Source of the DNA: Saprospiraceae bacterium | GTDB taxonomy: Bacteria; Bacteroidota; Bacteroidia; Chitinophagales; Saprospiraceae | Direction: 5' to 3' | DNA: 64,000 nucleotides | Assembly: GCA_019187225.1 (NCBI GenBank) | Contig: JABAQQ010000014.1 | Coordinates: forward strand, 62,001-126,000 | Shown here: positions 35,974-45,018 of the stretch, in pieces | Layout: every line of letters starts with the position of its first letter | Numbering within the stretch: position 1 is the stretch's first letter | Program-made: the position numbers and the translations under genes | Notes under the pieces: generated by a model | The model's input: the letters and a program-made list of their open reading frames with translations, nothing else | What the model was told of the DNA's origin: nothing | Database searches by the model: none

Positions 35974-36815
35974 TACACCTCATGCCGCGCCATTTCCCAT
36001 CCTACGATGGCACTTTTCCGCATTTCGCCCCAATGGTATCCGCCTAACTTTCCTGTGCTCTGAATAACCCGGTGGCAGGGGATGAGGAACCCCACCGGGT
36101 TGCTGCCCACCGCCGAGCCTACCGCGCGTACCGCTGCTGGATTGCCGATGCTTCGGGCGATCTGGCTGTACGTCGTCACGGCGCCGGGTGGGATGCGCAA
36201 AAGCGCCTCCCATACTTTCATCTGAAAATTAGTACCCTGCGCCAATACGGTGAGCCGCCGTAGATTGTTTTTTTCAGGAGAAAATATCTGTTGCGCCACT
36301 GGTTGGGTTTTCTCCGGTGCATGCTGGAGTTCGGCGAAATGCCATTTTTGTTGAAATACATCGAATTCGGTGCGCTTCCGGTCTTCATCCACAAAACTCA
36401 GAGCGCACACCCCACGGTCGGCGACGGCAATAAAACACAAGCCAAACGGCGTATTGTGGTAGCCATAATGGATATGGAGGCCCATTCCACCTTCGCGGAA
36501 TGCGCCGGGTGTCACGCCTTCGATGTTCACGAACAGGTCATACACCCGCGATTGAGCGGACAGACCCGCTTCGTCTGCTGCCGCCTGCAGATTGGGCAAT
36601 TCATAAATCCGGTCGCGCAGGAAATCGAGCGTCAGGAACTGCATGAATTTTTTGGGGCTGACACCCGCCCATTCGGTAAAAATCCGTTGAAAATGTTCCG
36701 GTGAAAGATGCACCTGGCGCGCCACTTCAGTCAGGTCGGGTTGCTGCCGGAAGTTTTTACCCAAAAAATCAATGGCTTGCGCCACACGTTCGTAATTCAG
36801 ATGTTGTTGGCCCAT
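35973..36815 (-). CDS. AraC-type regulator fused to O6-methylguanine-DNA methyltransferase (Ada-like, without the N-terminal Cys domain)
   Basis: 280 aa. The N-terminal AraC/XylS helix-turn-helix (about 10-110; VARQVHLSPEHFQRIFTEWAGVSPKKFMQFL) is followed by an Ogt domain. The suicide Cys is in IPCHRVIQ (about 248), preceded by GNPAAVRAVGSAVGSNP. It repairs O6-alkylguanine and may regulate transcription. The methyl-phosphotriester sensing domain of E. coli Ada is absent, a known short arrangement. I take the ATG at 36815; a TTG lies five codons upstream. Confidence 0.93.
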   Translation of the reverse strand: MGQQHLNYERVAQAIDFLGKNFRQQPDLTEVARQVHLSPEHFQRIFTEWAGVSPKKFMQFLTLDFLRDRIYELPNLQAAADEAGLSAQSRVYDLFVNIEGVTPGAFREGGMGLHIHYGYHNTPFGLCFIAVADRGVCALSFVDEDRKRTEFDVFQQKWHFAELQHAPEKTQPVAQQIFSPEKNNLRRLTVLAQGTNFQMKVWEALLRIPPGAVTTYSQIARSIGNPAAVRAVGSAVGSNPVGFLIPCHRVIQSTGKLGGYHWGEMRKSAIVGWEMARHEV

Positions 36816-36892
36816 GACTTTTTTTGACAAAGTTGGGGCATGGGTAGTGTGTGGGCAACCCGAAAGTTGCGGAAGTTGATTGGTTCGACAGC

Positions 36893-37351
36893 TTACTTCT
36901 CCAAACTTACGTTCACGGCATTAGGCCCTTTAGGGCCCATTTCTATCTCAAAGGAGACCCGGTCATTTTCCCGAATTGGATCGTTCAGGTTGTTGATATG
37001 TACGAAGACACTGTCCTTCGATTCCGAATCTACGATAAAACCATAGCCTTTTTCATTGTTGAAAAATTTCACTTTCCCGTGACGGGTGGTTTCTTCAGGG
37101 GTGGTATACCTGGAAGATGCCCCCAGAATAATGTCTTCGACCTTGATTTCCTTTCTTTTGGAAGGATCGGGCGGCGTGGAAGTGAGGTTGCCATTCTCAT
37201 CTACATAAGAGAGCATTTCTTCAAATGTCTTGGCGCCACCTTCGAGTTTATCCGCTTTGCGCTGTTCCCGGCGCTCTTGCTTTTCCTGATTCTTCTTTTG
37301 ACGTTTTTTTTCTTTTTCCTTTTTGTTAAAGGAATCCTGTGATTTGGCCAT
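36893..37351 (-). CDS. cold-shock-domain protein with charged N-terminal extension
   Basis: 152 aa. Residues 1-40 are almost only Lys, Arg, Glu and Gln (KKEKEKKRQKKNQEKQERRE), likely helical and RNA-binding. A cold-shock domain (about 88-152) shows HGKVKFFNNEKGYGFI (RNP1) and SVFVHIN (RNP2), ending MGPKGPNAVNVSLE. It is expected to bind single-stranded RNA or DNA as a chaperone. Long-tailed CSD proteins of this kind are common in Bacteroidota. It is followed by the GAGGCTGT repeat copy. Confidence 0.92.
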   Translation of the reverse strand: MAKSQDSFNKKEKEKKRQKKNQEKQERREQRKADKLEGGAKTFEEMLSYVDENGNLTSTPPDPSKRKEIKVEDIILGASSRYTTPEETTRHGKVKFFNNEKGYGFIVDSESKDSVFVHINNLNDPIRENDRVSFEIEMGPKGPNAVNVSLEK

Positions 37352-37473
37352 ATTTTATTTTTAGCGAAAAAAGACTTGTGAAACGGCGTCCATAACGAAC
37401 ATGAATATCTGCCGCTTTGCCGCTTCAAAGATAGCGCTTAACTGTCACTTTCCGTATAAAAATATTTTGTTGT

Positions 37474-37522
37474 ATGGAGGCTGTCTCGAAAACCGGTGAT
37501 TTGTTTATATGGTGATTTGTTT
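37474..37522 (+). repeat. GAGGCTGT...GGTGATTTG repeat copy overlapping the end of the MoeZ-like gene
   Basis: The 49 bp match the right arm of the 29923-30054 element (ATGGAGGCTGTC, GGTGATTTG, TTTATAT, GGTGATTTG). The stop codon and last residues (KQITI) of the downstream MoeZ-like gene are encoded by this repeat. Confidence 0.75.
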
Positions 37523-38665
37523 GTTTTCAAATTCCAAATAGGCCAAAATGCCGCCTTTCAAATTGTACAGGTTGTCGAAGCCGAGTTTATCTTCCAGTTC
37601 GCGGATGGCTTTGGCGCTGCGGACACCCGAACGGCAATGCACCACCACCTTCACATCTTTTGCAAAACGGCCGGCATTATCGACGACAGTGGCGAGCGGG
37701 ATCAGCTCGGCGCCGATGTTGGCCGCTTCGTATTCATGCGGTTCGCGAACGTCAATTAATTGAAATTTCTCGCCGAGTGTTTGCCATTGGATAAGTTCCT
37801 GCACGGTAATTTCTTTCACAGGTCGCTCCACTACTTTCATGCCGCAAAACATCTCGTAATCAATGAGTTGTTTTATCGTCGGATTATTTCCGTTGAGGGG
37901 GTTGTCGTCGCGCCGTTTGATTTTGAAGGTGCGGGTTTCAAAATTCAGGGCATCAAAAATGAAGAAACGGCCACTCAAGGGTTCCCCTACCCCGGTGATG
38001 ACTTTGATGACTTCGCTGGCTTGCATGCTGCCGATGATGCCGGGCAGCACCCCCAACACCCCACCTTCTGCGCAACTCGGCACCAAGCCGGGCGGTGGCG
38101 GAGTGGGATACAAGTCGCGGTAATTTGGCCCTAATTCTCCATCGGCATTGCGGTAGTTGAACACCGATACCTGTCCTTCAAACTGAAAAATGGATGCATA
38201 CACATTCGGTTTTCCGAGCAATACGCACGCATCGTTCACAAGGTAGCGCGTCGGAAAATTATCCGTGCCATCGGCTACCGCATCGTAGTCCCGGATGAGA
38301 TCGAGGGCGTTCTGAGAGTTGATGAGCGTGTCATACACCTTGATCTCGATGTGTGGGTTCAAGGCTTCGAGGCGACGACGGGCGGCTTCTACTTTGGGCT
38401 GGCCGACCGATTCCACGCCAAACAATATCTGGCGTTGCAGATTGCTGTCGTCAACCCGGTCGAAGTCCACGATACCGATGGTGCCCACACCTGCAGCCGC
38501 GAGGTAGAGCAGCACCGGGCTGCCGAGTCCGCCCGAACCAATGACCAGCACTTTGGCCGCTTTCAGTTTTTGCTGCGCTTCGAGGCCGAATTCCGGGATG
38601 ATGATGTGCCGGTTGTAACGAGCCAACTCCACTTTTGAAAATTGAATATCTTGATGAGACGGCAT
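37505..38665 (-). CDS. MoeZ-like protein: ThiF/MoeB E1 domain plus C-terminal rhodanese
   Basis: 386 aa. The N-terminal E1-like domain has the adenylation loop IGSGGLGSPV (43-51), FDRVDDSNLQRQ, DGTDNFPTRYLVND and PSCAEGGVLGVLPG. The C-terminal rhodanese domain (about 280-380) starts FQLIDVREPHEYE and has the active Cys in HCRSGVRS. Such proteins adenylate the C-terminal Gly-Gly of small sulfur carriers and then thiocarboxylate them. Here it is the last gene of a minus-strand cluster with a CysO-like carrier, a JAMM protease and a CysM-like synthase. This is the gene set of the mycobacterial MoeZ-CysO-CysM-Mec route. The last residues come from an intergenic repeat. Confidence 0.93.
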   Translation of the reverse strand: MPSHQDIQFSKVELARYNRHIIIPEFGLEAQQKLKAAKVLVIGSGGLGSPVLLYLAAAGVGTIGIVDFDRVDDSNLQRQILFGVESVGQPKVEAARRRLEALNPHIEIKVYDTLINSQNALDLIRDYDAVADGTDNFPTRYLVNDACVLLGKPNVYASIFQFEGQVSVFNYRNADGELGPNYRDLYPTPPPPGLVPSCAEGGVLGVLPGIIGSMQASEVIKVITGVGEPLSGRFFIFDALNFETRTFKIKRRDDNPLNGNNPTIKQLIDYEMFCGMKVVERPVKEITVQELIQWQTLGEKFQLIDVREPHEYEAANIGAELIPLATVVDNAGRFAKDVKVVVHCRSGVRSAKAIRELEDKLGFDNLYNLKGGILAYLEFENKQITI

Positions 38666-38705
38666 TGTATTTTGCTTTTAATTTGTTGAAATTGATACGA
38701 TGTGT

Positions 38706-38840
38706 CCCACCGATTTATCGGTGGGCGTAATGATGGTACCCCACCGATAAATCGGTGGGCTGAACGTCAAGTCCGAAGGACTTTTTCTACCTCAACCCAC
38801 CGATTTATCGGTGGGGCACATCAGTGGTACCCATCGGTGG
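38706..38840. repeat. array of CCCACCGATTTATCGGTGGG palindromes
   Basis: Three 20-bp perfect palindromes are at 38706-38725, 38740-38759 (central AAA instead of TTT) and 38796-38815. A half-copy CATCGGTGG is at 38832-38840. Between the second and third is a mini-terminator, AAGTCC-GAA-GGACTTTTT (38769-38786). The half-copy encodes the last residues of the CysO-like protein. REP-like element; no nearby transposase. Confidence 0.85.
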
Positions 38841-39111
38841 ATCCTCCCGCAATTGCAGGAACAATGCTGACGACTGTGTTATCGTGCAGCGGTGTTTTTC
38901 CCGCCTGCAAATCGCGGATGTCGTCTTCGCCGATGAAGATATTGAGAAAGGTACGGATATGCCCGCCCTCGTCGAACAGGTGTTTTTTCAGGTCGGGATA
39001 ATTCGCCGATAGATCGAGCAGCGCTTCTTCGACCGTGCCGGCCGCAATGTCCAGTTTGGCCGTGTTGTTGGTAAATTTACGCAAAGGCGTGGGAATGATG
39101 ACAGTTGCCAT
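38821..39111 (-). CDS. CysO/MoaD/ThiS-like sulfur carrier with extended C-terminus
   Basis: 96 aa. Ubiquitin-like fold: VIIPTPLRKFTNN at the start, GTVEEALLDLSANYP in the helix, FLNIFIGEDDIRDL, then VVSIVPAIAGG at 81-90. The pattern (IPTPLR, NIFxxxEDIR, xIVPAxAGG) is that of CysO, which delivers sulfur as a C-terminal Gly-Gly thiocarboxylate. Unlike CysO the protein does not end at GG: six more residues, STDGYH, are encoded by the edge of the palindromic repeat. They would have to be removed before activation. The JAMM protease encoded just upstream is a natural candidate, as QbsD trims QbsE. Its place between the JAMM and MoeZ-like genes supports the role. Confidence 0.9.
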   Translation of the reverse strand: MATVIIPTPLRKFTNNTAKLDIAAGTVEEALLDLSANYPDLKKHLFDEGGHIRTFLNIFIGEDDIRDLQAGKTPLHDNTVVSIVPAIAGGSTDGYH

Positions 39112-39137
39112 GTTTTGAATTTTAAGCGAATGAAATG

Positions 39138-39219
39138 AGACTTTGGACTTTTTGACATTGGACGTTTGACATCAGGCAGGGACAAGCCCGAAGTCCAATG
39201 TCTTTTGTCTGATGTCAAA
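39138..39219 (+). repeat. heptanucleotide repeat pair, TGACATT/GGACTTT family
   Basis: Left arm 39138-39177 reads as 7-bp steps (GACTTTG, GACTTTT, TGACATT, GGACGTT, TGACATC). Right arm 39186-39219 is its approximate reverse complement. The right arm is coding for the last residues of the JAMM protein. Confidence 0.65.
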
Positions 39220-39633
39220 AATGATGGTTTCTTCTTCAAATTGTTGTTCTTCGTTCAGCCGCCAGGACCGCAGATGGTCAAATTTTCCATCTATCACGGA
39301 AACAATGATATAGGAGAAAAACGGTTGTGCCGCTACCCGGTCGTGCTCCGACGGGATGGCGGGATGGTTCGGATGCGAGTGATAAACTGCCAGGAGTGCC
39401 AACCCTTTTTCGTCGGCGTAGCGCTCCGCCTTCAGGTAGTCTTTGGGGGCGATCTCAAAGCGGCGGCGTTTGTCGCCTTCCTTCGAGTTGTTAACGATGA
39501 GGATATCCGTCAGAATGCGTTCGTCGCCTGTTTCTTTCCCCAGCATAAAGCCGCAGCATTCGTCGGGAAAAGCCTGTAAGGCGTCGCCCAGCATTAATCT
39601 TTCGATGTTCGGTTCGATTTGAATCATTGCCAT
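39172..39633 (-). CDS. JAMM (Mov34/MPN) metalloprotease, Mec-like
   Basis: 153 aa. Zinc site complete: Glu25 in PDECCGF and the JAMM motif HSHPNHPAIPSEHD (His85, His87, Ser95, Asp98). In mycobacteria Mec releases cysteine from the CysO-cysteine adduct; related JAMM enzymes trim sulfur-carrier C-termini. This gene lies between the CysM-like synthase and the CysO-like carrier, which supports the same role. The C-terminus (FDIRQKTLDFGLVPA) is encoded by a heptanucleotide repeat arm and has no counterpart in the family, so it is probably a tail gained by repeat insertion. Start ATG at 39633; a second ATG lies two codons later. Confidence 0.92.
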   Translation of the reverse strand: MAMIQIEPNIERLMLGDALQAFPDECCGFMLGKETGDERILTDILIVNNSKEGDKRRRFEIAPKDYLKAERYADEKGLALLAVYHSHPNHPAIPSEHDRVAAQPFFSYIIVSVIDGKFDHLRSWRLNEEQQFEEETIIFDIRQKTLDFGLVPA

Positions 39634-39672
39634 TTACGTCATTAATGTCATTAAAAGGTTATTGGGAGGTCA

Positions 39673-40614
39673 TTATTTGAAAAGACGTTTCATGATTTCG
39701 CCATATTTGTCGGCGTTGTCAGGTAAAACTGTGACGACCGTACCGGCGTCTGATTTTTCGGCGACTTTGATGGCGCCGGCCAGGTTCGCTGCCGATGAAG
39801 GACTGAGCAGCAAACCCTCGTGTTGTTTGGCAGATTGGATGATCTCGTAGGCTTCGGCAGTATCAATTTCGAGAAATTCATCAGCCAAAGACGGATCGAA
39901 AATGCCAGGCACTACCGCTGTTTCCAGGTGTTTCCAACCTTCCAGGCCATGCAAGGCGGAGTCGGGTTGTAGTGCCACCAGGCGGATATCCGGATTAAAC
40001 TCCTTCAATCGCCGTCCTGTGCCGACAAAAGTACCAGTGGTGCCAAGTCCCGCCACAAAATGGGTTACACCGGGAAAATCTTCAAAGATTTCCACGGCGG
40101 TGTTGTGGTAATGCGCCTTCCAGTTGTAGTCATTTTTGTATTGGTCGGCATAGAAATAAAGATCCGGCCGGGATGTCGCCAGCTCCCTGGCGACATCCTG
40201 AGCGCCATCGGTGCCTTCAAATCTGGAAGTAAAAATGATCTCGGCGCCCAGCGTCTGTAAAATGGTCTTGCGTTCCGGCGAAGCATTTTCAGGCAGGCAC
40301 AGCACCACCCGCAACCCCAGTTCTTTGGCGATGGCTGCGTACGCGATGCCGGTGTTGCCACTCGTGGCATCTAAAAGGATTTTACCCCGGTGCAGGTCTC
40401 CCTTTTCCACCGCGCCACGGATGATGTTGAAAGCCGCCCTTGCTTTTACGCTGCCAGAAAGTTGTTCCCACTCTTTTTTGGCATAAATCCGAACGCCTTT
40501 CCTGGAAAACAAGTTACTGACCCGATGAACGGGCGTGTTGCCTATGCGCTGGCTTACCTGCCGTAACCGGGAAAGCAGGTCAATGTCGCTCTGAATTAAA
40601 TGTTCGATGTACAT
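39673..40614 (-). CDS. cysM: CysM-like cysteine synthase (PLP, fold type II)
   Basis: 313 aa. PLP Lys57 in SGSVKARAAF, the phosphate/substrate loop LDATSGNTGIAYA and the glycine loop VAGLGTTGTFVGTGRRLKEF, which is characteristic of CysM. In the mycobacterial system CysM uses O-phosphoserine and the CysO thiocarboxylate; cofactor partners next to this gene (JAMM, CysO-like, MoeZ-like) suggest the same chemistry, although O-acetylserine and sulfide cannot be excluded. The open frame continues to 40719 through a repeat; the ATG at 40614 begins the conserved part. Upstream are a heptanucleotide repeat, an intrinsic terminator and a leader ORF with seven Cys codons, so control by cysteine supply is likely. 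Confidence 0.93.
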   Translation of the reverse strand: MYIEHLIQSDIDLLSRLRQVSQRIGNTPVHRVSNLFSRKGVRIYAKKEWEQLSGSVKARAAFNIIRGAVEKGDLHRGKILLDATSGNTGIAYAAIAKELGLRVVLCLPENASPERKTILQTLGAEIIFTSRFEGTDGAQDVARELATSRPDLYFYADQYKNDYNWKAHYHNTAVEIFEDFPGVTHFVAGLGTTGTFVGTGRRLKEFNPDIRLVALQPDSALHGLEGWKHLETAVVPGIFDPSLADEFLEIDTAEAYEIIQSAKQHEGLLLSPSSAANLAGAIKVAEKSDAGTVVTVLPDNADKYGEIMKRLFK

Positions 40615-40626
40615 AGTGCCTTTTTT

Positions 40627-40716
40627 TGGATGTCGGATTATCAGATGTTGGACATTGGACAAAAAACGAGGAAGTTCAGAATCCATCGTCGAACGTCTGA
40701 TAGTCCAACATCCAGA
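40627..40716 (+). repeat. heptanucleotide repeat pair, TTGGACA/TGGATGT family
   Basis: Left arm 40627-40660 (TGGATGT, CGGATTA, TCAGATG, TTGGACA, TTGGAC) and an inverted right arm at 40695-40716 (GTCTGATAGTCCAACATCCAG). It lies in the mRNA leader between the attenuator hairpin and the cysM start codon. Confidence 0.65.
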
Positions 40717-40754
40717 CAAACAAAAAGCCCTGCGGCGCGATACCGAAGGGCTTT
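40717..40754 (-). terminator. intrinsic terminator/attenuator before cysM
   Basis: On the minus strand AAAGCCCT (40754-40747) pairs with AGGGCTTT (40731-40724), followed by TTTTTGTTTG. The 5' side CTTCGGT plus AGCC can instead pair with ACCGAAG-C-GGCT (40830-40819) in the upstream Cys leader ORF, 11 bp with one bulge. That would prevent the terminator from forming. Confidence 0.8.
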
Positions 40755-40782
40755 AGTGTGCAATTCACTTTTTGAACACGGG

Positions 40783-40893
40783 TCATGTTTGTTCTCCCAT
40801 CAGCCAAAAAGTCATCGCAGCCGCTTCGGTGTTCCGGGACGGACAGCAACAACAGCAACAACAAGTGGCCGATATGATAGAATGTATGCTCAT
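40783..40893 (-). CDS. cysteine leader peptide (seven consecutive Cys codons)
   Basis: 36-codon ORF, too short for normal gene calling: ATG at 40893, seven adjacent Cys codons (TGT TGT TGC TGT TGT TGC TGT, 40863-40843), TGA at 40785-40783. The peptide runs MSIHSIISAT, then seven Cys, then PSRNTEAAAMTFW. A near-consensus box CAACTTTG (40904-40897) ends 3 bases before the ATG, so the mRNA may be leaderless. It also begins only 28 bp after the peroxiredoxin stop codon. Bases 40830-40819, just past the Cys run, are complementary to the 5' arm of the terminator at 40754-40717. Polycysteine leader ORFs acting as cysteine-responsive attenuators are known in mycobacteria; the transcription-attenuation mechanism here is inference. 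Confidence 0.85.
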   Translation of the reverse strand: MSIHSIISATCCCCCCCPSRNTEAAAMTFWLMGEQT

Positions 40894-40921
40894 GTTCAAA
40901 GTTGATGAAGGTTGATAAGGG

Positions 40922-41563
40922 TTAATCTTGCACATCAGGTTGTGGGGTATACCGCAAATACGGTTTCACGACCTTGACCCCTTTCGGGAATTTTTTGATG
41001 GCATCTTCGGTCGAAACAGCCGGCACCACGATCACATCTTCTCCGCGGTTCCAGTCGGCGGGTGTGGCAACGCTGTAATTCGCCGTTAGTTGCAGGGAAT
41101 CGAGCACGCGCAGCACCTCATGGAAATTGCGTCCCGTCGAAGCCGGATAGGTGATGGTGAGTTTCACTTTTTTGTCCGGCCCGATGATAAACAGCGAACG
41201 CACAGTAAAGTTTTCGGAGGAATTGGGATGGATCATGCCGTACAGGTCGGCCACTTTGCGCTCAGGGTCGGCAATAATCGGAAAATTGACCGTCGTGTGC
41301 TGGGTTTCGTTGATGTCCTTTACCCAGCCTTCGTGTTTGTCGAGCGGATCTACGCTGACTGCCAGCACTTTGGTGTTGCGGCGGCGGAATTCTTCCTGCA
41401 ATTGCGCGGTTTTGCCCAATTCTGTAGTGCAAACGGGCGTATAATCGGCAGGATGCGAGAACAGAATACCCCAACCGTCGCCGAGATATTCGTAAAAGTC
41501 AATCTCGCCGGCAGTGGTTTGGGCTTTGAAATTGGGGGCGATGTCGCCAAGACGTAAACTCAT
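40922..41563 (-). CDS. 1-Cys peroxiredoxin (Prx6-like)
   Basis: 213 aa. The peroxidatic Cys45 lies in HPADYTPVCTTELG (PxxxTxxC), and the long C-terminal domain (about 150-213) with YPASTGRNFHEVLRVLDSLQL is that of Prx6-type enzymes. The PADWNRGEDVIV segment and the end (KKFPKGVKVVKPYLRYT) are also Prx6-typical. It reduces peroxides using thiols. No second catalytic Cys is seen. Upstream is a leader ORF with five Cys codons and a strong terminator, so expression probably responds to cysteine supply. Downstream is the second Cys leader and the cysM cluster, with no terminator visible between prx and that leader. Confidence 0.94.
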   Translation of the reverse strand: MSLRLGDIAPNFKAQTTAGEIDFYEYLGDGWGILFSHPADYTPVCTTELGKTAQLQEEFRRRNTKVLAVSVDPLDKHEGWVKDINETQHTTVNFPIIADPERKVADLYGMIHPNSSENFTVRSLFIIGPDKKVKLTITYPASTGRNFHEVLRVLDSLQLTANYSVATPADWNRGEDVIVVPAVSTEDAIKKFPKGVKVVKPYLRYTPQPDVQD

Positions 41564-41590
41564 AATTGTTTAATGCATTTAGTTATGGTG

Positions 41591-41636
41591 AAAAAAACAA
41601 ACAGCCCCCCGGTTTGTCAGGTACCGGAGGGCTGTT
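41591..41636 (-). terminator. intrinsic terminator/attenuator before the peroxiredoxin gene
   Basis: Minus-strand AACAGCCCTCCGGT (41636-41623) pairs with ACCGGGGGGCTGTT (41613-41600), 14 bp with one G-T pair, and is followed by TGTTTTTTT. It ends 28 bp before the ATG of the peroxiredoxin gene. CTCCGGT in the 5' arm can alternatively pair with ACCGGAG (41706-41700) in the Cys leader ORF. Confidence 0.88.
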
Positions 41637-41679
41637 TGCGAAGGAGACTTGTCAGAAAATTTAACTGTGCGTATTTCAC

Positions 41680-41763
41680 TTAACAAGCAGTCGGCATTGC
41701 TCCGGTGGTATGGCCACAACAGCAACAACAATCGTAGAAAAGTTGAAACGCATTAAAATTCAT
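41680..41763 (-). CDS. cysteine leader peptide (five consecutive Cys codons)
   Basis: 27-codon ORF plus TAA: ATG at 41763, peptide MNFNAFQLFYD, five Cys (TGT TGT TGC TGT TGT, 41730-41716), then GHTTGAMPTAC. The sequence ACCGGAG (41706-41700), 10 nt past the Cys run, complements the 5' arm of the following terminator. A ribosome stalled on the Cys codons could thus favour read-through. A perfect TAnnTTTG box (TAGATTTG) ends 4 bases before the ATG, so translation is probably leaderless. It is the first element of the prx-cysM sulfur locus. Confidence 0.87.
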   Translation of the reverse strand: MNFNAFQLFYDCCCCCGHTTGAMPTAC

Positions 41764-41767
41764 GGCG

Positions 41768-41775
41768 CAAATCTA
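41768..41775 (-). promoter_or_regulatory. TAGATTTG promoter box for the Cys-leader/peroxiredoxin unit
   Basis: Perfect TAnnTTTG on the minus strand (41775-41768), with a TTG 21 bp upstream. The distance to the leader ATG (four bases) predicts a transcript beginning at or very close to the ATG. Confidence 0.7.
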
Positions 41776-42012
41776 CGGGCGGCTTTTTCAGAAAAACAAC
41801 ACCCGACAGGTTAAATTTTTGTGACATTTCCCCATGCTACACTCTCTGACAGCGCGATAACGGAATTATCTAAAGTTTTAAAGACGATGGCGAGTTATTT
41901 AAAAAGCAAACCATACGATAGCAGAATTTTATTTCAAATCGAAGGGTGCATTTTTTTGCCGTTATTTTACAAAAATATCCCTTCAACCCAGTCTATCATG
42001 GCGCCGTCCCCC

Positions 42013-44868
42013 TTATTGTACAATGATCTTCTTCCGCACCATTCCATTTTCATCGGCCAGTTCCAGCCAGTACATCCCTGCTGGCAGAGAAGAAATATCG
42101 CTTTGAAAAACCGTTTTTCCGGATGGCAAACTCATATGACGCGTCTGCAAGCCGGCGCCCGTTGCGTTTTTAATTGAGATGGATACAACGCCGCCCCGGA
42201 ATGCATCTATTTCCACATTGACCAGACCGGTGGCCGGGTTCGGAAATATCCGCAGGGTCTCCGCCCATTCCGGCGAAGCGGCATTCAGCGTGGAATCTAC
42301 CACAGCTGTCACCGGTACACGGTCGCTGGTGCACTCGATTCCATAAAAATCCACTTCCCAGTTGTAGAAGTAGTAGTACCGCTCGATGCCGAAATTGGAA
42401 TTTTTGATACTCACTACATTCGGTATCACGTAGGGATATGCAACCCCCTGGGTGCTGCGCCGCAACTGTGGCCCCAAGGTGCCGAGCGTGGCTTCATTGA
42501 ACGATTCGTCGGTTATCAGCACCAGATCGGTGCCCACCGGCACGTCGAAATCAAGTCCTATGACAGTCGTACCGGCGGGGATATTCACCGTAATTGTTTG
42601 CAAAACCGCGCCGTCGCTGTTGCGCAGGTCAATTTTTCGTTCGGCAGTCGTATTGGCATATACTTTCACTTTAGCGAGCCGGAAAGGGCTGAAGCAATCG
42701 AAAATAATAGCGCCGTTGAATTGGGGGTCGCCAAAGGGCGTGCCCTGATGGTCCACCATTCCGGCAAACTGATTGGGCTGATCGTAGTTTGTCACATTGG
42801 ACACCCAATAGGTGGTACTTTCGTCGAGTGGAGGGGTGAGGAAGTTATTACCCGTAAAAAGCAGGTTGCCGCCAACTGCTTCGTCGTACCAATTAATTTG
42901 AGTACCCGTTGCAGAAAGCAGCGCCGTTTGCGCGGGCGCTATGGTATCGCTTGTCGCAACCGGCAAGGGATTGCCGAGGACTTCGACGGTCAATGGCGCC
43001 GAAGTAAACGGCGCGCACAACCCTTGCGCAGTAACAGTGTAAACACCGGACTGCGTCACCGTAATGCTTTGCGTGGTGTCGCCTGTACTCCAGTTGAATG
43101 CAAATGCTGGAGACGACGTCAGTGTCACCGCTTCCCCCTCACAAAAAACTGTATCGCCGGACGCAGTAATGGTCGGCACCTGAACGGGGTCGGTAATAAC
43201 GGCGACGGCATTTGAAACTGCCGTGCAGCCTTCATCCGTCGTGACCGTGACGGTATAATTGCCGGCGGTTTTCGCAACGACGGAAGCCGTCGTCTCGCCC
43301 GTACTCCAGAGATAAGCGTTAAAAGGTTCCGTCACACTGAGCAGTACGCTGTCGCCGGAACAAAAGGTTGCGGGGCCATTGGCCATTGCGGTCACCTGCG
43401 GCACGATACAACCGCCTTCTTCCATTGTAATATATTGATTTACAGAAGGCTGATGCAGCACATCCACTATACCGGAAGGCCAGAATACTTTCACGGAATC
43501 CACGGCTGCAACTTGTCCCATACCGAAGTGTATTTGCATCGAGTTCATGATGCCGTAACTCTCCCCGGACCGCACCTCGCGGGTCTGAATTCCGAGGGCA
43601 CTGTACAACTGCACTTTAGCACCCACGCCATTGCGGTTGCTTTGCACACCGCGCAAGTTGAGGCCGAAAAAATGGTTATCATTACCGTTGTTCATCCACA
43701 GCGCATCGGGTACATTACTCGGGTCGGTAAAAATTTCGGCGTATCCTGCATATATATCCTGGAAACCGTCGTGGTTGAGGTCACCTATGGCAAAGGATTC
43801 GATTGGGTTGTTGTCGAAAAGGTCTTCCACGATGGAAAACGTTTTGTCGCCGTTGTTGCGCAGCAGAAAGTGGTCTGTGCCCGCCACGAGAATATCCACA
43901 AAACCGTCGTTGTCGAAATCGCGAAAAACGCCCTGGATCGGCAAACCGGTGATCTCGTTGAATATACCCGCTGCAATGGAAATATCGGTAAAATAGCCCG
44001 TTCCGTCGTTCTCCAAAAGTTGGCTCGAAACGTCGTGATTGGTAATAAAACAATCGAAATCGCCGTCATTGTCTATATCGCCGAAATCGGCCGTCCAGCT
44101 TTGTGCGCCGATGCGCAGACCCGAAGCGTTGGAGGTATCCTGCTTATAAGTGCCGTTGCCGTTGTTCAGGAACAATTGATTGATGCGCCGTCCGTCCGTG
44201 GGATCGCTGACGCCCGAACGGCATTTGGCAATGTACAGGTCGAGGTCGCCATCGTTGTCCACATCACTCCAAACCGAACCGTAATTGCCGGAGTTGTCTG
44301 ATGGCGGCACGGTAGACAGGTTGATCCAACCCGGTTGCAGTACCAGATTACCCGCGCCGTCATTTCCGAATATGCGCGCGGCGCCATCATCGTGGCACAC
44401 AAAGGCATCGAGCCAGCCGTCGTTGTTGATATCGGCAAAATTGACGCATTGCGTAAAAGTGCCCGGTTCGTCGAGAATATCAATGACATAAGCCGTACCC
44501 TCGTCATTGGCCATCGCCAGTTTAATATCGTCATAAGCGCCTCCTGTCAGAACGTCGGGGAAACCATTGTTGTCCACGTCGGCGGCACACATGCCCCACT
44601 GACTACCGTCGGGCAAGGGCCCTACGGTCATGTGTGCGAACGGCTGATCTGGAGCGGTCTGGTATTCAACGGCCAGTTGAAATCCCTGGTTCATCCGGGC
44701 GATGTCATCCAATCCGTCGCCGTTCATGTCGAGTACGGCAATGGCTACCCCGCTGAAATGATTGGCCGGCGTGAGCAGACCGGTCTTTTTGACAAATTGG
44801 ATCTGTGCCTGAATAGCGCCGGTAAACAAGAAAAATGCGGCCGAAAGCAGAAGTAATTGTTTTTTCAT
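42013..44868 (-). CDS. FG-GAP/VCBS repeat protein with ASPIC/UnbV domain, Ig-like modules and T9SS sorting domain
   Basis: 951 aa with signal peptide MKKQLLLLSAAFFLFTGAIQAQ. The N-terminal half (about 20-420) is a beta-propeller of VCBS/FG-GAP repeats with Ca-binding loops such as DMNGDGLDD, DVDNDGDLD, DIDNDGDFD, DFDNDGFVD and DLNHDGFQD. An ASPIC/UnbV module (about 430-510; NRNGVGAKVQLYSA, REVRSGESYG, VFWPSGIVD) follows. Then come Ig-like/SprB-like modules with LWSTGETT and a C-terminal type A sorting signal starting RIFPNPATGLVNVEI. It is a T9SS-exported surface protein, ligand unknown. I take the ATG at 44868; the longer frame has no signal peptide. Confidence 0.9.
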   Translation of the reverse strand: MKKQLLLLSAAFFLFTGAIQAQIQFVKKTGLLTPANHFSGVAIAVLDMNGDGLDDIARMNQGFQLAVEYQTAPDQPFAHMTVGPLPDGSQWGMCAADVDNNGFPDVLTGGAYDDIKLAMANDEGTAYVIDILDEPGTFTQCVNFADINNDGWLDAFVCHDDGAARIFGNDGAGNLVLQPGWINLSTVPPSDNSGNYGSVWSDVDNDGDLDLYIAKCRSGVSDPTDGRRINQLFLNNGNGTYKQDTSNASGLRIGAQSWTADFGDIDNDGDFDCFITNHDVSSQLLENDGTGYFTDISIAAGIFNEITGLPIQGVFRDFDNDGFVDILVAGTDHFLLRNNGDKTFSIVEDLFDNNPIESFAIGDLNHDGFQDIYAGYAEIFTDPSNVPDALWMNNGNDNHFFGLNLRGVQSNRNGVGAKVQLYSALGIQTREVRSGESYGIMNSMQIHFGMGQVAAVDSVKVFWPSGIVDVLHQPSVNQYITMEEGGCIVPQVTAMANGPATFCSGDSVLLSVTEPFNAYLWSTGETTASVVAKTAGNYTVTVTTDEGCTAVSNAVAVITDPVQVPTITASGDTVFCEGEAVTLTSSPAFAFNWSTGDTTQSITVTQSGVYTVTAQGLCAPFTSAPLTVEVLGNPLPVATSDTIAPAQTALLSATGTQINWYDEAVGGNLLFTGNNFLTPPLDESTTYWVSNVTNYDQPNQFAGMVDHQGTPFGDPQFNGAIIFDCFSPFRLAKVKVYANTTAERKIDLRNSDGAVLQTITVNIPAGTTVIGLDFDVPVGTDLVLITDESFNEATLGTLGPQLRRSTQGVAYPYVIPNVVSIKNSNFGIERYYYFYNWEVDFYGIECTSDRVPVTAVVDSTLNAASPEWAETLRIFPNPATGLVNVEIDAFRGGVVSISIKNATGAGLQTRHMSLPSGKTVFQSDISSLPAGMYWLELADENGMVRKKIIVQ

Positions 44869-44969
44869 TTTCAAGGTATTACAAAGGAATTTTGAAAAAC
44901 GACAGGAAAGGTAGCGGGAAACGTTCAATCCGGAAAAACAGAGCAGGGGCATTGGCAAATTGCCGACAG

Positions 44970-45018
44970 ATTGCGGATTTTTGATTGCGGATTTCGGATT
45001 TCGGATTGCCGATTTCGG
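44970..45018 (+). repeat. heptanucleotide array, ATTNCGG family (seven units)
   Basis: Seven consecutive 7-bp units: ATTGCGG, ATTTTTG, ATTGCGG, ATTTCGG, ATTTCGG, ATTGCCG, ATTTCGG. The same family is found around the era start (3334-3470). No inverted arm is evident here. Confidence 0.85.

Follow-up and report, generated by a model that had tools for sequence, protein, structure and literature searches.

Polycysteine leader peptides as predicted cysteine-sensing transcription attenuators of cysM-mec-cysO-moeZ operons in Saprospiraceae and other Bacteroidota

We analyzed a window of 64,000 nucleotides (nt) from a Saprospiraceae bacterium (assembly GCA_019187225.1, contig JABAQQ010000014.1, positions 62,001 to 126,000), in which a short open reading frame (ORF) with seven consecutive cysteine codons precedes an operon of the order cysM-mec-cysO-moeZ. 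Comparison with relatives and RNA folding indicate that this ORF is very probably the leader of a cysteine-sensing, ribosome-mediated transcription attenuator, for which a response to cysteine is presumed. Three features expected of a leader-peptide attenuator were found: a run of codons for the amino acid that the downstream operon would make, an intrinsic terminator located approximately 45 to 100 nt past the run and before the first gene, and, directly after the run, an antiterminator that would exclude the terminator and that co-varies with it. The cysteine leader described in the original prediction is confirmed; the finding is larger than was stated there and is far from a chance occurrence. 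A second leader of the same kind lies upstream in the window, and we refer to the two, in the order of transcription, as leader 1 and leader 2. The elements of leader 2, which precedes cysM, are as follows.

40783..40893, minus strand: leader ORF 2, 36 codons with seven consecutive Cys codons, 5' of cysM, kept in relatives
40843..40863, minus strand: seven-Cys codon run of leader ORF 2, in which TGT and TGC are mixed
40897..40904, minus strand: off-consensus -7-like box CAACTTTG, 3 nt 5' of the leader 2 ATG (consensus from PMC9723704)
40819..40830, minus strand: antiterminator strand (region 2) of leader 2, ACCGAAGCGGCT
40742..40752, minus strand: region 3, AGCCCTTCGGT, the terminator 5' arm, complementary to region 2
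40716..40754, minus strand: intrinsic terminator with a T-rich tail, between leader 2 and cysM

Exact string matching located the ORF, the terminator and cysM where they had been predicted, with the peptide MSIHSIISATCCCCCCCPSRNTEAAAMTFWLMGEQT encoded from 40893 to 40783. The pairing that had been proposed was also confirmed; ACCGAAGCGGCT, which begins at 40830 and 12 nt past the final Cys codon, can base-pair with AGCCCTTCGGT of the terminator 5' arm. The folded terminator piece (40754-40720) had an energy of -17.2 kcal/mol (z score -3.3, 2 of 200 shuffles as good). When the segment running from the last Cys codon through the whole terminator 5' arm was folded, the minimum-energy structure contained the antiterminator (z score -4.0, 0 of 200 shuffles as good).

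These elements suggest the following mechanism. When cysteinyl-transfer RNA (Cys-tRNA) is short, a ribosome would halt on the Cys run and leave the strand 3' of the run free; once the terminator 5' arm emerged, this strand would capture it, and the polymerase would continue into cysM-mec-cysO-moeZ. With ample cysteine, the ribosome would instead reach the stop codon and cover or disrupt the antiterminator, so that the terminator would form and transcription would stop.

Relatives of cysM were collected from the order of the window (45 matches in 41 of 149 genomes), from named genomes (80 of 270 loci retained), from the class (12 of 295 genomes) and from the phylum (42 of 395 genomes), and every match from the order (45) and from the phylum was examined. 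One order locus lies on the contig of a Chitinophagaceae isolate (L011 and L051), which makes Chitinophagales the probable order. Loci identical to another (10) were dropped; 4 of the 162 distinct cysM loci were too short, leaving 158 that could be assessed, and a run of at least three Cys was counted as a leader. At 109 of these 158 loci a Cys leader and a terminator were found at cysM itself (at one of them, L028, by eye), while 7 carried the leader 5' of an upstream peroxiredoxin gene, 5 carried a leader without a terminator and 37 had none, which brings the total with a Cys leader to 121. The Cys run, with a terminator after it, is kept across families, in favor of the original prediction. 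L131 was scored as having a terminator, yet its hairpin is poor and five sister loci have none. Named carriers are Niastella vici, N. yeongjuensis, N. caeni, Puia dinghuensis, Pseudoflavitalea rhizosphaerae, Flexithrix dorotheae and Splendidivirga corallicola. The nearest named relative, the Saprospiraceae metagenome-assembled genome of locus L040 (86% identity), carries both leaders.

The original prediction was most exposed to close relatives that keep the gene and lack the run. Within the order, the leader was present at 34 of 43 assessable cysM loci; a first count, restricted to the best matches, had given 28 of 28, and the weaker matches, 15 from the order and 12 from the phylum, were then added. 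At seven of the nine leaderless order loci, none of mec, cysO and moeZ lies in the 2.7 kb 3' of cysM, and L358 ends at a contig end. Because most of the leaderless order loci lack the operon, the leader tends to accompany the operon and not cysM as such. L366, which has the full operon, contains two Cys pairs in a short ORF, and no run; this locus and L044 appeared by eye to have interrupted Cys leaders, yet both were scored as having none. Loci L359, L360, L362 and L364 of the same order, with a cysM of approximately 53 to 56% identity, no leader and no mec, cysO or moeZ downstream, are stand-alone cysM paralogues.

Runs of this kind might also be simple repeats, in which a microsatellite of TGT/CAA, or a poly-Gln ORF on the antisense strand, is misread as Cys. 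An antisense frame encoding poly-Gln does lie at 40772-40915, and the mixing of TGT and TGC, seen in 101 of 109 runs, would equally be synonymous if other frames were read as Leu or Gln, and so leaves the choice of frame undecided. In the window's own genome, moreover, runs of five TGY codons were found at 9 places versus 10 for a reversed-pattern control, and runs of four at 102 versus 120. Since these counts are at control level, bare runs are no evidence and only their context is. Four of the nine five-codon places fall in leaders 1 and 2, and the other five are not leader-like. Upstream of cysM, a small ORF from ATG to stop with at least four consecutive Cys, on the same strand and within 400 nt, was present at 81 of 131 loci (locus L067/L120 was entered twice), against a background of 1 in 1806 tiles of 400 nt; for three-Cys runs the background was 15 of 1848 tiles. 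The same 131 regions yielded runs of Leu in 19 cases and of Val in 1 on the same strand, and of Gln in 19 on the opposite strand. In addition, interrupted runs keep the Cys frame (CCCTCCC, CCICCCCC). These data make an origin by chance or simple repeat hardly credible.

We next consider the RNA pairing on which attenuation would depend. For 100 non-identical, terminator-bearing leaders, the post-run tail was paired with the terminator 5' arm, L018 and L096 having been dropped for identical tails; L028, whose Cys run is interrupted, entered the pairing, permutation and folding sets with the wrong leader tail. The pairing core began at a median of 18 nt past the last Cys codon and ended at a median of 12 nt before the stop. 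Tails paired with their own arms at a mean of -14.8 kcal/mol, compared with -11.4 kcal/mol for swapped partners and -9.2 kcal/mol for shuffled tails, and in 68 of the 100 leaders no more than 5% of the shuffles paired as well. When 43 related leaders were aligned as nucleotides, the antiterminator core proved nearly invariant; covariation was therefore tested across groups instead. No permutation of tails and arms in 20,000 was as good as the real pairing, either for all 100 leaders or for the 25 whose arm cores differ at three or more of eight bases. Thus, the compensatory changes that the original prediction had pointed to were found, and they include the co-varying pairs GGTGAGG/CCTCACC, GGTGGAG/CTCCACC, TGCGG/CCGCA and TTTCAGCG/CGCTGAAA.

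The pairing also bears on the idea that the product of the small ORF is itself a functional Cys-rich peptide, for example one that binds metals or thiols, whose transcript ends at the terminator and whose neighboring operon has a promoter of its own. The ORF is indeed open, conserved and rich in Cys. However, by eye, the flanking peptide differs widely between groups outside the Cys run, while the RNA complementarity is kept, and runs spanning 3 to 10 Cys between unrelated flanks suit a codon counter better than a folded peptide. We regard a working peptide as very improbable.

The second Cys leader of the window (leader 1; 41763-41680, minus strand; peptide MNFNAFQLFYDCCCCCGHTTGAMPTAC) is absent from the original prediction and surfaced from the search of the window's own genome for five Cys codons. 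It precedes a peroxiredoxin gene that is followed by leader 2, with these features.

41680..41763, minus strand: leader ORF 1, 27 codons with five consecutive Cys codons, 5' of the peroxiredoxin gene
41768..41775, minus strand: perfect -7 box TAGATTTG, 4 nt 5' of the leader 1 ATG
41700..41706, minus strand: antiterminator strand of leader 1, ACCGGAG
41590..41637, minus strand: leader 1 terminator (z score -5.7, 0 of 200 shuffles as good)
40922..41563, minus strand: 1-Cys-type peroxiredoxin gene, flanked by both attenuators

The window would accordingly hold two gates, one 5' of the peroxiredoxin gene and one between that gene and cysM. The -7 consensus described for Bacteroidota is TAnnTTTG, at -12 to -5 (PMC9723704), and the perfect box of leader 1 fits this spacing, so its transcript would start on the ATG. 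A leaderless start had originally been suggested for leader 2. There, the box CAACTTTG does lie 3 nt from the ATG, as described, but it departs from the consensus at one of the six fixed bases. Among 150 leaders, the TAnnTTTG box was located 4 to 5 nt 5' of the ATG in 11 and within 12 nt in 21 (versus 0.78% of 16,955 control ATGs), and 97 had no such box within 52 nt. The suggestion thus finds partial support.

To model the position of the ribosome, the 100 leaders were folded with the ribosome-covered bases masked. On average, the tail captured 0.68 of the terminator 5' arm with the ribosome at the first Cys codon and 0.36 with the ribosome at the stop codon. For the cysM leader of the window, the values were 0.79 when stalled, 0.16 at the stop and 0.78 with no ribosome. 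For 64 of the 100 leaders, this folding model gave a stalled-state capture at least 0.2 higher than that at the stop.

Several observations weigh against attenuation as set out above. In the folding model, mean arm capture was 0.54 without any ribosome, the stalled and stop states differed by less than 0.2 in 33 of 100 leaders, and the difference was in the wrong direction in 3. The model does not discriminate for the peroxiredoxin leader of the window (0.56 stalled, 0.57 at the stop, 0.61 with no ribosome), a modeled result that speaks against the simple mechanism for leader 1; a peroxiredoxin is, moreover, not an obvious target of cysteine control. With regard to pairing, 32 of the 100 tails failed to beat 95% of their own shuffles, L154 and L131 had no significant antiterminator, and in only 6 of the 25 divergent-arm leaders did the tail pair better with its own arm than with any other, a result that we think is explained by GC-rich arms pairing well with anything. 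The 37 loci lacking a three-Cys run include full operons in distant groups (L376 to L380). Finally, leader 2 departs from the textbook attenuator as which it was originally described: the run, the terminator and the antiterminator are present, but the stop codon starts 57 nt past the Cys run and 38 nt past the antiterminator core, where the median over leaders is 12 nt. Because of this distance, a ribosome at the stop codon of leader 2 would have to open the spacer hairpin and could not cover the antiterminator; the off state would probably arise through the opening of this hairpin between the two antiterminator strands.

Cys leaders were also found at genes other than cysM. In 12 genomes of the order, 141 places with five consecutive TGY codons were recorded; two of them, the microsatellite tracts G124:C191 and G041:C169, were set aside, as were those already known as cysM leaders. 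A small intergenic ORF followed by a terminator was located 5' of a nitrite/sulfite reductase gene in L161, L168, L172 and L236 and 5' of the O-acetylhomoserine sulfhydrylase gene metY in L185 and L239. L231 is a candidate Cys leader without a terminator, 5' of an unassigned frame, and the remaining places examined lay in or against longer ORFs or had no ATG. As a separate observation, L218 (minus strand, upstream of 2201) has a leader of the form ATG-CCCCCC-stop 5' of an OsmC-like gene, with no terminator found. The target families were tested on one protein of each kind, and other reductase and MetY genes were assigned by eye or by direct search. The direct search gave a Cys leader (run of at least three) 5' of the reductase at 16 of 23 assessable order loci, 12 of the 23 having at least four Cys, and at 1 of 26 phylum loci outside the order (30 of 37 phylum matches were examined). 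For MetY the count was 18 of 29 order loci, of which 10 had a terminator and 8 had none found. Both targets fit a cysteine pathway, although the reductase scores below the NCBIfam cut-offs and therefore may act in nitrite reduction. The genome of the window gave no reductase match at E 1e-120 and no MetY match at 1e-150, so the device may be confined there to the peroxiredoxin-cysM block.

Across the order, the same device would thus act at cysM, the nitrite/sulfite reductase and metY, at some loci as two gates in series. Twenty-four tandem candidates had been chosen because two Cys leaders were seen close together. Of these, 22 passed as tandem attenuators (13 at cysM, 3 at peroxiredoxin and 6 at reductase genes), with a terminator for each leader and predicted antiterminator energies of -7.0 to -23.5 kcal/mol; 2 of the 44 leaders lacked an ATG. 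One narrow literature search found no description of tandem leader-peptide attenuators.

Leaders might instead act through translation attenuation, governing ribosome access to the downstream gene, with the hairpin merely ending upstream transcripts. Translation attenuation is the mechanism described for the cysteine genes of Mycobacterium smegmatis (PMC13236596), and no terminator was found in actinobacterial cys operons (PMC1262725). Some loci examined here have a similar appearance. In L130 to L135, from one distant genus, the leaders end in CCCCCCS-stop or nearly so, 5 of the 6 have no terminator and several have a small hairpin 3' of the stop, a design that possibly reflects control at the level of translation; the 8 metY leaders for which this search found no terminator point the same way. 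In contrast, a terminator lies 3' of the leader in the window and at 109 loci, the leader tail is able to pair with the 5' arm of that terminator and co-varies with it, and every leader of the 22 tandem loci has a terminator of its own. Translation attenuation therefore appears improbable as the general explanation, and transcription attenuation is preferred. The mycobacterial leaders resemble those reported here in that a short ORF with a Cys run stands 5' of cysteine-making genes and is thought to sense cysteine supply; they are described as working without terminators, whereas here a terminator and a matched antiterminator are present, in another phylum and in tandem copies. The actinobacterial arrangement described in PMC1262725, with the Cys run near the stop, is unlike leader 2 and is matched only in side branches such as L132 and L135.

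Downstream of leader 2, the window operon has the order cysM-mec-cysO-moeZ.

39673..40614, minus strand: cysM-like cysteine synthase (PALP), start ATG at 40614, score below the NCBIfam cysM cut-off
39172..39633, minus strand: Mec-like JAMM/JAB peptidase
38821..39111, minus strand: CysO-like sulfur carrier of the ThiS/MoaD/SAMP type, top PDB match chain 3dwg_C
37505..38665, minus strand: MoeZ-like E1 adenylyltransferase with a rhodanese domain

Entry 3dwg, which gives the best match to the CysO-like carrier, includes a cysteine synthase B chain as well, and we take it to be the CysM-CysO complex of Mycobacterium tuberculosis. Judged by homology, the set of CysM, Mec, CysO and MoeZ is complete, and together these genes presumably specify a CysO-type, CysO-dependent cysteine pathway. 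All of mec, cysO and moeZ were present within 2.7 kb 3' of cysM at 124 of 135 loci checked, and 6 of the 11 that fell short end at contig ends. The carrier ends in GGSTDGYH, past the di-glycine, which would therefore need trimming, presumably by the adjoining JAMM peptidase. Two further elements were observed in the operon. The 96 nt from the leader 2 terminator to the cysM start (40621-40716, minus strand) form a single long hairpin (-43.8 kcal/mol, z score -8.9) that has four partial matches elsewhere in the genome and, by eye, is missing from the corresponding place in the nearest relative, L040; it looks like a dispersed palindromic element. Between cysO and moeZ (38700-38815), the palindrome CCCACCGATAAATCGGTGGG occurs three times, one copy having a central ATTTAT.

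To our knowledge, the control of cysteine supply in Bacteroidota has been little studied. Mycobacteria also possess the CysO pathway, and their polycysteine leader ORFs were reportedly the subject of work by Canestrari in 2020. The classical leader attenuators of trp, his and leu are proteobacterial; the leaders described here share with them the codon run, the antiterminator, the terminator and the biosynthetic operon, and differ in amino acid and phylum. Bacteroid-trp is an attenuation-like leader in Bacteroidota. An Rfam scan of 36000-45000 gave no Bacteroid-trp, and its three matches up to E = 1 were all microRNA models below the gathering threshold.

In the published record, Bacteroid-trp RNA is listed as RF01692 (PMC2864571). 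Polycysteine leaders in mycobacteria are cited in PMC13236596 and PMC9094748, and leaders of this mycobacterial type had been predicted earlier (PMC1262725). The uORFC-8-2 motif, located 5' of cysS in Rhodobacterales, is a predicted Cys-codon transcription attenuator with a terminator (PMC8632094). That motif has two Cys codons in its first stem and belongs to cysS of alphaproteobacteria, whereas leader 2 of the window has seven Cys codons and belongs to cysM; the description of the motif in PMC8632094 includes neither a long Cys run nor a tandem form. As of 2010, leader-peptide systems were stated to be known only in Proteobacteria and Actinobacteria before the authors' own Firmicutes case (PMC2965389). 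For Bacteroidota, amino-acid operons of Flavobacterium psychrophilum have been suggested to be subject to leader-peptide attenuation, with no cysteine case named in the account given in PMC9723704, and small ORFs reminiscent of leader peptides have been noted in Bacteroides thetaiotaomicron (PMC7366714). In searches that covered the main texts of open-licence PMC papers, we recognized no cysteine leader in Bacteroidota.

The device can be read from sequence at most of the sampled cysM operons of the order and would represent a widespread form of cysteine-sensing transcription attenuation. It is likely a convergent counterpart, on the CysO pathway, of the mycobacterial polycysteine leaders. Genes that would not otherwise have been guessed, namely those for the peroxiredoxin and the OsmC-like protein, may also be under cysteine control, and loci with one gate and with two would form a natural series for comparison. 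A broader proposal, to which we give even chances, is that polycysteine attenuators run cysteine acquisition in a large part of Bacteroidota through a regulon of cysM-cysO, the reductase and metY; that the serial two-gate switch multiplies the response to Cys-tRNA; that the sister design without terminators is mycobacteria-like; and that polycysteine leaders came to control the CysO pathway on at least two separate occasions.
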